DNA of 62,045 bases from the NCBI GenBank assembly GCA_008933835.1, contig WBUG01000011.1:1-62045 (forward strand), given 5' to 3'. Below are positions 1,734 through 50,760 of the stretch, piece after piece. Positions within the stretch are counted from its first letter, which is position 1. Each line of letters opens with the position of its first letter. Position numbers and translations under genes: made by a program. Origin of the DNA: Bacteroidota bacterium (lineage in GTDB: Bacteria > Bacteroidota > Ignavibacteria > UBA10030 > UBA8401). The notes beneath the pieces were generated by a model. It had not been told where the DNA came from and did no database searches. It saw only the letters and a program-made list of their open reading frames with translations.

Positions 1734-3428
1734 TCAGCCGATGACCCGTAGATACTCTTCCAGCGAGATCACCCCCGCCATCAGCTTCTTCGCGGCGTCG
1801 AACCGGAGCGATTCGAAACCGCGCCGCGCCGCCGTCTCGCGCAGGACGACCGGCGAGGCCTGTTTGTAGATGAGGTCGCGCAGTTCTTCGTCCACCATGA
1901 GCACTTCGTGGATGGCGATCCGGCCGAGGTGGCCGTCCCCGCCGCAGTACTCGCATCCCTTTCCCTTGAAGAGCGTGACCGCATCCCCCAGCTGGCTCAG
2001 TCCGGCCGCGTGGAGCTGGTGTTCGGTCGGTTTGTAGGGGGTCTTGCAGAACTTGCAGACCCGCCGCGCGAGCTGCTGGAACACGATGCCGTTGATGATG
2101 GGGGCGAGCCACGACGGGGGGATGTCGAAACTGACGAGGCGGGGGATGACCGACATGGCGTCGCTCGCCAGCACGGTGCTGATGACCATGTTGCCGGTGA
2201 GGGTCGCTTCGGCGGCGGCCCGTCCGGCGGCCGGTTCGTTGATGCTGCCGACGAAGATGACGTCCGGATGCTGGCGGAGCACCGCGCGCATCGACGTGGG
2301 ATAGTCCATCTTCTGTTCGGGGTCGATCTCGACCTGACTGGCGAAGTTGAGACGGAACTCGACCGGGTTCTCGATGGTCATGATGCTCTTCTGCGCGTCG
2401 CGCAGACCGGCCAGCAGGGCGTACGCGGTGGTGCTAACGCCGGAGCCGGAGGGACCGGCGATCATCATCAGGCCGCGCGGGCGGTTGATGAGGGAGCGGA
2501 CGCGCGCCAGGTTCTCGCCCGAAAAGCCGAGCTCCTGCATGTCCATGATCCCCTGTCCCTTCCGCACGATACGGATGGCGTACCGTTCGCCTTCGAGGGT
2601 GGGGAGGGTGTTGACGCGGAAGTCGAACTGGAACGGACCGATGTTCTGCGAGTAGCGGCCGTCCTGCGCCTTCTTCTTGTCGAAGAGCTTCAGGCTGCCG
2701 CGCGTACGGAGCACGTTGCAGACGGTCTCGATCATCTCGCGGGGGAACGAGGCGTAGTGGACGAGCACGCCGTCCACGCTGAAGCGCACGCGAAGTTCCG
2801 ATTCCATCGGTTCGAGGTAGATGTCCGTGGCGCCCATCTTGATGCCGCGCACCACGAGCTCGTCCACGATGATGTCGATGTTGGGCATCTTGCCGGAGTG
2901 GAAGATCTCGTAGACCTTCTCCTTCGGCTTGCTCTTCAGGTCGATGGTCTCGAGGGGGAACTTGGAGGGGAGTGTCTGGTACTCCGCCAGTTTCTTGTCC
3001 AGTCCCATCGTGAGCACGGAGAGCATCGCGGAGCGGGGGACGACGACCGGAACGATGAAGGCCTTGGTCTCGTTCCGCATCGCTTCGACGGCGTCCTTGT
3101 ACGGCGGAGCGGTGAAGGCGACGGTGAGTTCGATGCCGCTGCGGATGATGGGGAGGGCGTTGAAGCGTTTGAGGAACGAATCCTTCATCTGCTTGTCCGA
3201 GAACGAGACCATCGACTCGGTCAGGCGGAGGAGCGGCACGTTGCATTCCTCCGCGATGGCGGCGGCCACCGCCTCTTCGTCCACGCCGAGCGTATCCACG
3301 AGCAGGTCGGTGCTCGGTTTCGCGTCCGGGGCGGACATGCCGCGCTGGAACTTCTCGATGCGCGTCTTGTCCAGATGCCCCTTCGTCATCAGCAGACGGA
3401 CGAGGCGGATGTCTTCATCTTTGATCAT
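1734..3428 (-). CDS. PilB/GspE/MshE-like secretion ATPase homologue with degenerate catalytic site
   Basis: Full-length homologue (564 aa) of type IV pilus / type II secretion motor ATPases: N-terminal GspE_N-like domain (1-155), linker domain (about 180-290), RecA-like ATPase domain (about 295-564), and a retained Cys4 zinc site (C458, C461, C492, C495). Nearly every catalytic hallmark is altered. Walker A reads GPSGSGV-ST with Val331 in place of Lys. The Asp-box EDP is ENP (354). The Walker B Glu is Ser395 (VGSINE instead of VGEIRD). The His-box STLHTNDA is STVLASDA with Leu420. The N-domain arginine pair is RFSVDG instead of RFRxDG. ATP hydrolysis is therefore unlikely. No pilin, PilC, PilT or PilM-Q gene is nearby. 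It follows the zinc-ribbon gene by 3 bases, so a scaffold or regulatory role downstream of the receiver is a reasonable inference. Confidence 0.88.
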   Translation of the reverse strand: MIKDEDIRLVRLLMTKGHLDKTRIEKFQRGMSAPDAKPSTDLLVDTLGVDEEAVAAAIAEECNVPLLRLTESMVSFSDKQMKDSFLKRFNALPIIRSGIELTVAFTAPPYKDAVEAMRNETKAFIVPVVVPRSAMLSVLTMGLDKKLAEYQTLPSKFPLETIDLKSKPKEKVYEIFHSGKMPNIDIIVDELVVRGIKMGATDIYLEPMESELRVRFSVDGVLVHYASFPREMIETVCNVLRTRGSLKLFDKKKAQDGRYSQNIGPFQFDFRVNTLPTLEGERYAIRIVRKGQGIMDMQELGFSGENLARVRSLINRPRGLMMIAGPSGSGVSTTAYALLAGLRDAQKSIMTIENPVEFRLNFASQVEIDPEQKMDYPTSMRAVLRQHPDVIFVGSINEPAAGRAAAEATLTGNMVISTVLASDAMSVIPRLVSFDIPPSWLAPIINGIVFQQLARRVCKFCKTPYKPTEHQLHAAGLSQLGDAVTLFKGKGCEYCGGDGHLGRIAIHEVLMVDEELRDLIYKQASPVVLRETAARRGFESLRFDAAKKLMAGVISLEEYLRVIG

Positions 3429-3431
3429 GGG

Positions 3432-3665
3432 TCATCCGAAGAGTTTGTCGATGTCGGTCTGGGTCACCGATGCATTGCTCTCTCCGGCGACGGAGCGCCG
3501 GTTGATGTCGAGCAGCACCCCGAGTTCGTGGTCGGAGAAGTGGCCGGGAGGGGCGAGGAGGGTGGAATGGTCCGGCAGCGGCGCGGCGGTGCCGAACTTG
3601 GCGCCGCAACCGGCGCAGTAGCGGGCGCCGTCCGGGCTTTCCTGGGAACAGGCGGGACACTTCAT
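3432..3665 (-). CDS. small zinc-ribbon protein with FliM-like CheY-binding tail
   Basis: A 77-residue protein starting at the ATG read from 3665, overlapping the receiver gene's stop by 4 bases (ATGA). Residues 3-20 form a zinc ribbon with two CxxC knuckles (C3, C6, C17, C20; CPAC and CAGC). A flexible acidic middle follows, and the last 11 residues are VTQTDIDKLFG. This tail closely matches the N-terminal CheY-binding peptide of FliM (LSQAEIDALL in E. coli), conserving the polar-Gln-x-acidic-Ile-Asp-x-Leu-hydrophobic pattern. A CheY-like receiver is encoded immediately upstream and a pseudo-ATPase immediately downstream, so I infer an adaptor that docks phospho-receiver to the ATPase. I know of no named family for it. 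Confidence 0.8.
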   Translation of the reverse strand: MKCPACSQESPDGARYCAGCGAKFGTAAPLPDHSTLLAPPGHFSDHELGVLLDINRRSVAGESNASVTQTDIDKLFG

Positions 3666-4051
3666 GGCGTCAGGCCCTCCACGTTGAGGAACTTCTGGAT
3701 GATCTCGACCACTTTCGCCTGCGTGTACGGTTTCACCAGATAGAAGCTCGCCCCGCGCTCTTTCGCCTCCTTCACCACTTCGATGGAGGTGACGGCGGAG
3801 AGCATCACCACCACCGCATCGGGGCGGAGTTCGCGCATGCGGCTGAGCGCTTCGAGGCCGTTCATTTTCGGCATCAGGTTGTCGAGGAACACGATGGAAG
3901 GGTTCGTCTTCTGGAACTGTTCGACCCCTTCCTCGCCGTTGGAGGCCATCACGACCGTGCCGATGCCCAGTTTCTTGAGCGTCACGGCGAAGAGGGCGCG
4001 GATGTGCTCGGAATCGTCGACGATGAGGACCGTTACATCTTCCTTTTTCAT
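3662..4051 (-). CDS. CheY-like single-domain response regulator
   Basis: A 129-residue receiver with no output domain. The acidic pocket D12-D13, phospho-acceptor D57 (FLDNLMPKMNG) and Lys in LVKPYT are all present, so it should be phosphorylatable. The start at 4051 (MKKEDVTVL) leaves a leader of about 70 bases after the predicted promoter; the longer in-frame extension is not receiver-like. No histidine kinase is adjacent. It is first in a three-gene operon with the zinc-ribbon/FliM-tail protein and the degenerate PilB-like ATPase, which suggests its output is protein-protein contact and not DNA binding. Confidence 0.92.
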   Translation of the reverse strand: MKKEDVTVLIVDDSEHIRALFAVTLKKLGIGTVVMASNGEEGVEQFQKTNPSIVFLDNLMPKMNGLEALSRMRELRPDAVVVMLSAVTSIEVVKEAKERGASFYLVKPYTQAKVVEIIQKFLNVEGLTP

Positions 4052-4127
4052 GGGGATATTCCGTCGTTCTGCGGTGGCGGTGGTCCGGACCCGGAGGGGT
4101 TCGGGGGATTGTCGTCGTGTCGTTATA

Positions 4128-4156
4128 ATAGTAGAAAGAAATCGTCCGGAATGCAA
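4128..4156 (-). promoter_or_regulatory. predicted sigma-70 promoter of the receiver/zinc-ribbon/pseudo-ATPase operon
   Basis: On the minus strand TTGCAT (4156-4151) is followed after 17 bases by TACTAT (4133-4128), giving a start near 4121 and a leader of about 70 bases. The spacing and hexamers match the other promoters seen in this window. Confidence 0.5.
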
Positions 4157-4218
4157 CCGGTCCGCCGATGCCGAGGGCGTTCCTTGAAACTCTCCGATAT
4201 TTTACGCATTTTGCAGTA

Positions 4219-4246
4219 GGGACGTCACTCGCGTCCCATTTTTTTC
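4219..4246 (+). terminator. terminator-like hairpin directly before hisB (possible attenuator)
   Basis: GGGACG (4219-4224), a 7-base loop and CGTCCC (4232-4237) are followed by ATTTTTTTC. The T tract is on the plus strand and ends two bases before the hisB ATG at 4249. No plus-strand gene lies upstream, so it is either an attenuator for the his operon or stops stray transcripts. A 22-codon open frame (4151-4219, starting MQPVRRC) ends exactly at the hairpin but contains no His codon. Confidence 0.55.
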
Positions 4247-4248
4247 TT

Positions 4249-48976: not shown

Positions 48977-49348
48977 ATGGCACAGCCGTTCAACATCCTG
49001 GTGGTCGACGACGAAGACGCGCTACGCAACGTCCTGAGCAGTGAGTTGCAGAGCGAGGGGTATTCCGTCGTCTCCGCGGCGGACGGGGATGAGGCGATTT
49101 CGATCCTGCAGCAGAAGTCGTTCGATCTGGTGTTACTGGACATCAAGATGCCCCGGGTGGACGGGTTCGAGGTGCTGCGCTTCATCAAGGAACGCTACGC
49201 CAACACCAAAGTGATCATGCTGACCGGTTTCGCGGACCTCAAGAACGCCATCGAGTCCAAGAAGCTCGGCGCCGAGGACTTCGTCAGCAAGCCGTACGAC
49301 CTGGTCGACCTTCTGACGACCATCGAGCGCGTGCTCTCGGCCGAGTAA
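48977..49348 (+). CDS. single-domain response regulator
   Basis: A 123-residue receiver with the acidic pocket D11-D12, phospho-acceptor D55 (LLDIKMPRVDG) and Lys in VSKPYD. It has no output domain. It is very similar to the receiver of the next gene (LGAEDFVSKPYD versus LGAYDFVSKPYN), so the two may compete for one kinase or form a phosphorelay. It is 44 bases upstream of that gene. No kinase is adjacent. Confidence 0.92.
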   Translation: MAQPFNILVVDDEDALRNVLSSELQSEGYSVVSAADGDEAISILQQKSFDLVLLDIKMPRVDGFEVLRFIKERYANTKVIMLTGFADLKNAIESKKLGAEDFVSKPYDLVDLLTTIERVLSAE

Positions 49349-49392
49349 TTCCCGTCCTTCCCTCCAACGGACCCCCTCTCCACGGCCCCTTC

Positions 49393-50760
49393 ATGGTGCG
49401 CAGTCACTCCATACTCATCGTTGACGACGAACCGAGCGTCTGCTTCCTGCTGAAGGAGGAACTCTCCGAGAAGAAGCAGTTCACCGTCCACACCGTCAAC
49501 GACGGCGCCGAGGCGCTCAACGCGCTCCAGCGGCATCCGGCGGACGTGGTGCTGCTCGACGTGCGGATGCCCCGTATGAACGGCCTCGAAGTGCTGAAGT
49601 ACATCCGCGAGAACCATCCCACCACCCAGGTCATCATGCTGACCAACTTCGCCGACGTGAAGACCGCCATCGAAGCGACCAAGCTCGGCGCGTACGACTT
49701 CGTCAGCAAACCGTACAACCGCGACGAACTGATGTCCACCGTGCTCCGCGCGATGGAGCACCGCCGCCTCACCATCGACAACGAGGTGATGAAGTACGAG
49801 CTGCAGCGGAAGCGCGGACAGCGCGAGATCATCGCGCGCAGTCCGGCGATGCAGACCGTGCTCGAGACCGCGAGGAAGGTGGCGCCGAGCGAGGCGTTCG
49901 TCCACATCTGCGGACCGAGCGGCACCGGCAAGGAGCTCATCGCGCACCTCATCCATACCGAGAGCGGCCGGAAGGACCGCCCCTTCGTGGTGGTGAACTG
50001 CGCCGCCCTGCCGGACGCGCTGCTGGAGAGCGAGCTCTTCGGACACGAGAAGGGGGCGTTCACGAACGCGTACCAGACGAAGCAGGGGCTCGTGGAGGTC
50101 GCCAACGGCGGGTCGCTCTTCCTCGACGAGGTGGGGGACATCAGCGCCGCCGTGCAGCCGAAGCTGCTGCGGTTCCTGGAGACGGGCGAGTTCCGCCGCG
50201 TCGGCGGCACCATCACGATGAAGGTCGACGTCCGCGTCGTCTCCGCCACCAACAAGGACCTGCCGACCGAGGTGAAGGCGGGACGCTTCCGCGAAGACCT
50301 GCTCTACCGTCTCAACGTCGTCACCATCAAACTGCCCCCGCTCCGGGAGCGCCGTGAGGACATCCCGCTCCTCGCCCAGCACTTCCTCCAGAAGAACCAG
50401 ACCACCCGCACGCCGCGTACGCTCGGCGCGGACGCGCTGCAGGCGCTCCTCACGCACGACTGGCCGGGCAATATCCGCGAACTCGAACACGCCATCGAAG
50501 GGGCGCTGCTCATGGCGCACGGCGACGAGATCGTGCGCAAAGACCTGCTCCTCTCTCCCGGCGACGCGGCCCCCGCCTCGGCCGGACCGGCTGCGCCGGG
50601 CGTGATGACCATCGAAGAGCTGGAGCGGATGCACATCGAACATACGCTGAAACACTTCCGGTACAACCGCGCCAAGAGCGCCGCCGCGCTCGGCATCACG
50701 GTGAAGACCCTCTACCTCAAGATCAAACGTTACGGCATCGCCACTCCCGATCCCGCCTGA
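49393..50760 (+). CDS. NtrC-family sigma-54 response regulator with variant GAFTNA loop
   Basis: A 455-residue regulator: receiver (1-120, D56), AAA+ domain (about 145-375) with Walker A GPSGTGKE (174-181) and Walker B SLFLDE, and a Fis-type helix-turn-helix at 418-450 (NRAKSAAALGITVKTLYLKIKRYG). The sigma-54 contact loop is G221-A-F-T-N-A226 in place of GAFTGA, so its interaction with sigma-54 may be altered, although natural variants at this position exist. It is paired with the upstream single-domain receiver. A 16-bp palindrome overlaps its stop codon. Confidence 0.93.
   Translation: MVRSHSILIVDDEPSVCFLLKEELSEKKQFTVHTVNDGAEALNALQRHPADVVLLDVRMPRMNGLEVLKYIRENHPTTQVIMLTNFADVKTAIEATKLGAYDFVSKPYNRDELMSTVLRAMEHRRLTIDNEVMKYELQRKRGQREIIARSPAMQTVLETARKVAPSEAFVHICGPSGTGKELIAHLIHTESGRKDRPFVVVNCAALPDALLESELFGHEKGAFTNAYQTKQGLVEVANGGSLFLDEVGDISAAVQPKLLRFLETGEFRRVGGTITMKVDVRVVSATNKDLPTEVKAGRFREDLLYRLNVVTIKLPPLRERREDIPLLAQHFLQKNQTTRTPRTLGADALQALLTHDWPGNIRELEHAIEGALLMAHGDEIVRKDLLLSPGDAAPASAGPAAPGVMTIEELERMHIEHTLKHFRYNRAKSAAALGITVKTLYLKIKRYGIATPDPA

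Follow-up and report, generated by a model that had tools for sequence, protein, structure and literature searches.

A conserved three-gene cassette with a proposed role in linking a CheY-like receiver, by way of a zinc ribbon, to a type IV pilus-family ATPase

Cyanobacterial PATAN response regulators, in which the PATAN domain is fused to a receiver, are reported to act on the pilus extension ATPase PilB. In the flagellar switch, phosphorylated CheY (CheY-P) binds the N-terminal peptide of FliM or FliY, whose CheY-P binding motif is EIDALL (PMC9126983). In archaea, CheY-P acts on the archaellum through CheF, a PH-domain protein that contacts another side of CheY, acts on ArlCDE and has no EIDALL-type peptide (PMC9126983). 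The PilB-PilZ-FimX system places a small cytosolic adaptor on the pilus extension ATPase and connects it to a signalling protein (PMC8389850, PMC11656802), and the Walker A mutant K327A of Myxococcus xanthus PilB, a nucleotide-free form, signals more strongly (PMC5544727). Here we describe a three-gene operon on a 62,045-nucleotide contig of a Bacteroidota bacterium (WBUG01000011.1; the window, meaning the whole stretch of DNA that was analysed), which encodes a CheY-like receiver, a zinc-ribbon protein and a PilB-like ATPase. It belongs to a conserved cassette, and on balance we favour the reading that this cassette couples the receiver to a type IV pilus-family ATPase via the zinc-ribbon protein as adaptor.

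By analogy, the cassette would work like CheY-FliM in using a peptide and like CheY-CheF in using an adaptor to a type IV filament motor, but it is a member of neither. Like the flagellar system it has a CheY-like receiver with the conserved switch tyrosine and a client peptide, (S/T)QxDIDxLF in the cassette and LSQxEIDxLL in FliM (FliY), both of them known or predicted short helices. It differs from that system in that the peptide is the C-terminus of a zinc ribbon and the partner is a PilB-family ATPase, not the C-ring. In the PATAN regulators, too, a receiver is reported to target the extension ATPase of a pilus, whereas the cassette has a stand-alone receiver and a separate zinc ribbon in a fixed set of three genes. 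The archaeal system resembles it in having a dedicated adaptor that connects CheY-P with a motor belonging to the type IV filament superfamily (PMC9126983), but CheF is unrelated to the cassette zinc ribbon. PilB-PilZ-FimX shares the small adaptor on the extension ATPase and its connection to signalling; however, the cassette has neither PilZ nor FimX, and its signal would be receiver phosphorylation passed on via the zinc ribbon. M. xanthus provides a PilB that still has a biological output without its Walker A lysine (PMC5544727), although that protein is an engineered mutant of the housekeeping PilB and the window ATPase is a natural paralogue in a dedicated cassette. In Pfam searches of the trio, the notable matches were limited to the receiver, zinc-ribbon, MshEN and T2SSE families; the PH (CheF), PilZ/EAL (PilZ/FimX) and PATAN domains were not among them.

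The trio forms a single minus-strand operon in the order receiver, zinc ribbon and ATPase:

3662..4051, minus strand: CheY-like single-domain receiver of the RR2 class, 129 amino acids, Response_reg
3432..3665, minus strand: zinc-ribbon adaptor (putative), 77 amino acids, with one Cys4 ribbon (C3, C6, C17, C20)
3435..3470, minus strand: C-terminal tail of the zinc ribbon, residues 66-77, SVTQTDIDKLFG, a putative receiver-docking peptide like the FliM N-peptide
1734..3428, minus strand: PilB/GspE-like ATPase of the ATP2 class, 564 amino acids, with an N-terminal MshEN-like domain and a T2SSE core

The receiver and zinc-ribbon genes overlap by 4 bases (ATGA), and the gap between the zinc-ribbon and ATPase genes is 3 bases. 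The first-pass annotation had described a three-gene operon with this overlap and gap, and the open reading frames (ORFs) and their spacing were all found on the minus strand.

The zinc-ribbon protein ends in the tail peptide SVTQTDIDKLFG, which in sequence closely resembles the CheY-docking peptide of FliM. The genome is flagellated and its own FliM starts with MAEILSQQEIDSLL, so that LSQQEIDSLL can be set beside VTQTDIDKLF of the window zinc ribbon. Every zinc ribbon of a cassette has (S/T/G)Qx(D/E)(I/L/V)Dx(L/F)F or a near variant at its C-terminal end, for example VTQTDIDKLFG in the window, LSQSDLDKLFE and VSQKDVDALFE on contig C91 of the same genome, and LGQDQIDALFG and IGQDDLDRLFG in Myxococcota. 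Both the sequence of the tail and its predicted helix correspond to an SQxEIDxLL-like element in a short helix at the end of a protein. CheZ binds CheY via a similar C-terminal peptide.

Written as Q-x-x-(I/L/V)-(D/E)-x-(L/F/M/I)-F, the motif ended all 45 distinct zinc ribbons adjoining an ATPase versus 1 of 26 without an ATPase (Fisher p 2.6e-18, indicative only, since many loci are related and the value overstates their independence; the zinc-ribbon profile was also built from tail-bearing members and favours tail-bearing matches). Double zinc ribbons from the profile searches that had neither tail nor ATPase served as the control group. The motif was found at none of about 2,342 unrelated ORF ends, the single background match being itself a cassette ribbon. 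A stricter version of the motif was sought at the ends of six-frame ORFs from the loci retrieved up to that point (826,000 residues), where it matched only cassette ribbons and the FliM of this genome. The zinc-ribbon profile alone was rejected as a cross-phylum marker; most of its matches were double zinc ribbons that belonged to long, unrelated proteins and came with neither the tail nor an ATPase.

From these comparisons we infer that the receiver docks on the zinc-ribbon tail. The tail might instead bind another partner, either the ATPase itself or the chemotaxis CheY, while the receiver acts directly on the ATPase in a PATAN-like manner. Restriction of the tail to ATPase-associated ribbons would fit an ATPase-binding peptide equally well, and direct receiver-PilB links have been described in cyanobacteria. 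However, the motif is close to the CheY-binding motif of FliM, including the FliM of this very genome, and most tail-bearing loci have an adjacent receiver. We consider another tail partner unlikely and keep docking of the receiver as the preferred interpretation. At a Myxococcota locus (L189 1225-2316), a zinc ribbon with the tail VQDQAELDALFGG had no ATPase detected within 1.2 kb downstream; it may represent either a broken neighbourhood or a solo adaptor. In the Kofleriaceae proteins at L102 7262-7723 and L103 6973-7845 (Myxococcota), long linkers rich in Pro and Ala separate the ribbons from the docking tail, which suggests a flexible tethered arm.

The receiver matched Response_reg in Pfam (E 2.8e-26) and has the residues of a CheY-like receiver, namely an acidic pair (D12/D13), a phospho-acceptor aspartate (D57), S/T, lysine (K107) and a switch aromatic (Y104). 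D57, Y104 and K107 are invariant across 22 aligned receivers. Y104 is presumably the counterpart of CheY Tyr106, by alignment to the E. coli CheY sequence. The receiver of the third trio at L064 has lost one residue of the acidic pair (DDS to DYS). The zinc ribbon was sub-threshold in Pfam (DZR 1.4e-4, Zn_Ribbon_1 5e-4), with its CxxC...CxxC pattern complete. Against the Double zinc ribbon model (DZR, PF12773; cut-off 27.3 bits), the window copy with one ribbon scored 22.3 bits and the L104 relative 43.9. The second ribbon is present in most relatives and deleted in the window protein and its nearest relative (L059 2101-2343); the two belong to the same ATPase sister pair. AlphaFold2 (AF2) predicted helices at residues 45-59 and 69-76 of the window zinc ribbon with modest confidence, the latter being the tail.

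ATPase and zinc-ribbon searches of 60 related genomes largely converged on the same loci. The receiver-ribbon-ATPase order and tight spacing recur as a cassette in Ignavibacteria-type genomes, often in tandem, and named records carrying it are Ignavibacteriae and Bacteroidota metagenome-assembled genomes. Two further tandem trios lie on contig C91 of this genome (L058 9185-13995). Genomes of the same family carry two tandem trios (L060, L061, L063, L065, L072 and L073), three (L064, 6207-13498) or a single one (L074), and single trios were found in another family of the same order (L066, L067, L070 and L077). The L060, L061 and L064 cassettes adjoin the his operon, as does the window trio, which is therefore their positional counterpart. 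An extra single-domain receiver without its own zinc ribbon or ATPase follows the tandem trios at L060 7602-7997, L061 11696-12061 and L072 10145-10516.

The cassette was also found in Myxococcota, with receiver, ribbon and ATPase at L103 and L104 and ribbon and ATPase at L102. A search of 76 relatives of the L103 genome yielded further trios (L169, L170, L171, L174, L177 and L179) and ribbon-ATPase pairs (L173, L175 and L178); loci of one kind or the other are present in at least 10 Myxococcota. A chance association of the three genes was ruled out by the recurrence of the trio across related genomes. The conservation check proposed in the first-pass annotation was thus run, and the trio proved to be kept in Ignavibacteria-type genomes and again in Myxococcota. 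In a phylogenetic tree, the Ignavibacteria-type cassette ATPases formed one clade (100/100), separate from the PilB proteins encoded on contigs C73 and C13 of this genome, and the window ATPase was sister to that of genome G009 (97/99). We found no published description of a cassette of CheY, FliM-like tail, PilB and zinc ribbon, which is weak evidence as most subscription literature lay outside the search; the trio had not been recognized as a described system in the initial reading of the sequence either.

The window ATPase matched T2SSE (PF00437) in Pfam with E 1.3e-81 (274.6 bits, curated cut-off 24.9) and MshEN with E 1.9e-6 over residues 63-138 only; the canonical RLG motif of MshEN-type c-di-GMP receptors, which bind through two motifs, is not visible by eye. 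A related ATPase clade (families f3 and f6) is without the first ~150 residues. Among ATPases with enough upstream sequence, a zinc ribbon lies beside 26 of 26 full-length proteins versus 0 of 17 N-truncated ones, one of the 17 falling outside the cassette clade. This co-loss of N-domain and zinc ribbon suggests the N-terminal MshEN-like domain of the ATPase as the site of contact with the ribbon.

The closest NCBIfam models of the window ATPase are PilB and GspE, and it is homologous to both while scoring below both equivalog cut-offs (TIGR02538, PilB, 357.1 bits against 675.65; TIGR02533, GspE, 343 bits against 630.25). Its solved relatives in the PDB are PilF, PilB and GspE, to E 6e-88. Residue numbering of the window ATPase coincides with that of Geobacter PilB, from which the roles of motif residues were taken (PMC5424180). 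Three motifs are altered:

2436..2456, minus strand: Walker A G-P-S-G-S-G-V, residues 325-331, catalytic lysine replaced by V331
2244..2264, minus strand: Walker B region D-V-I-F-V-G-S, residues 389-395, catalytic glutamate replaced by S395
2169..2198, minus strand: HIS-box region T-G-N-M-V-I-S-T-V-L, residues 411-420, H413 replaced by N and H420 by L

The ASP-box E357, the arginine fingers R271/R286 and the Cys4 zinc site (C458, C461, C492 and C495) are retained, and these residues are invariant. Among about 30 aligned cassette ATPases, the Walker A lysine is missing only from the window copy. ATP1-class proteins have fully canonical motifs (GPTGSGKST, GEIRD and STLHTND), as do the three Myxococcota cassette ATPases that were read. 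In the ATP2 class the HIS box is gone from every member, and Walker A and the catalytic glutamate are mostly retained. As judged from these alignments, catalytic loss is graded and the window ATPase is the extreme ATP2 member. The description of the ATPase as a degenerate pseudo-ATPase in the first-pass annotation is correct for the window copy (K331V, E395S, H413N and H420L), but it does not extend to the ATP1 and three Myxococcota proteins; since the loss is graded and branch-specific, "pseudo-ATPase" does not define the system. Having lost the Walker A lysine, the catalytic glutamate and the HIS box, the window copy probably acts as a scaffold or competitor that works independently of nucleotide.

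These losses bear on two other explanations. The first is that the ATPase serves signalling only, as a PilB-shaped relay to some other output such as exopolysaccharide, with the window copy fixed in a nucleotide-free state by V331. M. xanthus PilB sets a precedent at the same residue (PMC5544727), and the greater activity of its K327A signalling form makes such a role a serious rival. The window copy has lost the Walker A lysine and E395 while keeping the other conserved residues, and the trio lies outside pilus operons in every locus read. On the other hand, Walker A and the catalytic glutamate are intact in most of the family, so nucleotide-free signalling is not the general function, and pilin genes adjoin three sister loci. 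We regard a purely signalling ATPase as improbable, and a link to a pilus-type machine as the better interpretation.

The second explanation is that the window trio is a redundant, decaying duplicate whose Walker losses reflect relaxed selection. Two other trios are present in this genome, the second zinc site of the ribbon is lost, and the branch of the window ATPase is ~3.5 times as long as that of its sister (0.38 vs. 0.11). The genome's other ATP2 copy shows very rapid evolution (branch 1.15, with changes at 16 of 84 otherwise invariant sites). However, the three reading frames are intact with operon spacing kept, and the receiver active site and the adaptor tail are intact. Of 72 positions at which all other ATP2 members agree, only 4 are changed in the window ATPase, an ordinary number for the set, and its nonsynonymous divergence (dN) from three relatives is 0.27-0.34 with synonymous divergence (dS) saturated or nearly so. 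Both observations argue against a dying gene, and we judge decay very unlikely; a maintained gene in a working cassette remains our preferred view. In the fast-evolving copy, at L058 12307-13995 on contig C91, the Walker A lysine is still present but the catalytic glutamate is gone (GALT); this copy is a second ATPase that is degenerating independently.

The target of the cassette is probably a type IV pilus-like machine, in this genome likely the one encoded on contig C73. At the C73 locus, two MGQQQLLL-type pilins, PilC and PilB are encoded together with putative minor pilins, a PilT-like ATPase and a secretin. On C91, a pilin paralogue (L058 8317-8742; E 6.5e-19 to the C73 pilins) and a small membrane protein come before trio 1, the same pair lies upstream of the L090 trio, and at L052 an MGQQQLLL pilin (3014-3394) directly follows an N-truncated ATPase. 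These pilins beside sister cassettes, homologous to those of C73, make the C73 machine the likeliest target. The pilin-like family, which starts MGQQQLLL(I/V)ILG (L084 4609-5504, L058 8317-8742 and L052 3014-3394), had no Pfam match and lacks the glutamate that type IV pilins usually have at position +5; its members are apparently the pilins of the C73 machine.

A standard type IV pilus operon (PilC, PilT, PilM-Q and pilins) was found neither in the window nor at the sister loci (0 of roughly 20 related loci inspected). The statement made from the window alone, that no usual pilus partner or kinase is adjacent, is true within the window and does not carry over to relatives, where a pilin is present at three sister loci and kinases flank the trio at two (REC-HATPase in L066 and PAS-HisKA-HATPase-REC in L074). 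The target could also be a type II secretion-like system, with the cassette ATPases as GspE-like regulators. The PilB and GspE models scored nearly equally (357 vs. 343 bits), and PilC/GspF-type proteins are encoded at both C13 and C73. Against this, homologues of the C73 pilins lie beside sister cassettes, and C73 itself encodes a PilT-like ATPase, which secretion systems are not normally known to have. We consider a secretion target quite unlikely and a pilus-like machine the more plausible partner.

We propose the following mechanism, in which binding, phosphorylation, pilus target and direction of control are all inferred. The receiver would be phosphorylated at D57 by a histidine kinase whose gene lies away from the trio in this genome and beside it in some relatives. 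The alpha4-beta5-alpha5 face of the phospho-receiver would then bind the SQxDIDxLF-type C-terminal helix of the zinc ribbon, much as CheY-P binds the FliM N-peptide. The zinc-ribbon protein would itself be bound to the ATPase, most likely at the N-terminal MshEN-like domain, and docking would alter whether the ATPase engages or powers a type IV pilus-like machine with genes at another locus, or how it does so. The output of canonical ATP1 copies would probably be motor activity, and that of the window copy probably the action of a nucleotide-independent scaffold or competitor. A chain from receiver through adaptor to an ATPase-shaped scaffold had been suggested from the window sequence; the chain now has strong comparative support in the conserved trio, whereas the FliM-like tail had been missed and the catalytic loss is not general.

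Several points weigh against this reading, in addition to the bias of the profile and the relatedness of the loci given above. Active-site residues and a switch aromatic are widespread among receivers and are no proof of FliM-like docking, and the motif is N-terminal in FliM and C-terminal in the zinc ribbon. The co-loss of N-domain and adaptor maps to one clade and may be a single event. The structure model of the window ATPase is poor (pLDDT 69, pTM 0.38), the pilin link is limited to three loci, and a cognate kinase does not lie beside the window copy.

The window corresponds to the whole of contig C68 in a 3.57-Mb assembly of 163 contigs. A contaminant contig was ruled out: hisB is single-copy in the assembly and the composition is like that of C91 (4-mer correlation 0.963; GC 0.649 vs. 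0.644). One further feature lies upstream of the trio:

4052..4248, no strand: divergent intergenic region between the receiver gene and hisB, 197 bases

A sigma-70-like match at 4228-4199 on the minus strand agrees with 9 of 12 consensus positions, with 0.5 such matches expected by chance in 6 kb, and is a weak prediction of the trio promoter. For the single promoter predicted earlier, the clear feature is the 197-base divergent region. A plus-strand operon convergent with the trio (75-1661) encodes, by eye, an extracytoplasmic function (ECF)-type sigma factor, a small anti-sigma-like protein and a carboxypeptidase-D/TonB-type protein. At 48980-50760, a receiver gene is followed by an NtrC-type sigma-54 activator; this receiver is 29-32% identical to the trio receiver.

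The action of chemotaxis-type receivers on type IV pilus motors is largely open outside a few model organisms, and the cassette offers a concrete and testable route. The graded series from active to dead ATPases within one operon family should be useful for studying the roles of pseudo-ATPases in hexameric motors. More tentatively, and with less confidence than in the coupling itself, the cassette may be a trans-phylum switch by which CheY-type phospho-signals control type IV filament ATPases via a tailed zinc ribbon, with dead paralogues built into a mixed motor as subunits that switch or brake it. If the proposed coupling is true, CheY peptide docking would have moved from the flagellar switch to a pilus-ATPase adaptor, and a set of zinc-ribbon proteins without annotation, from two phyla or more, would gain a predicted function.

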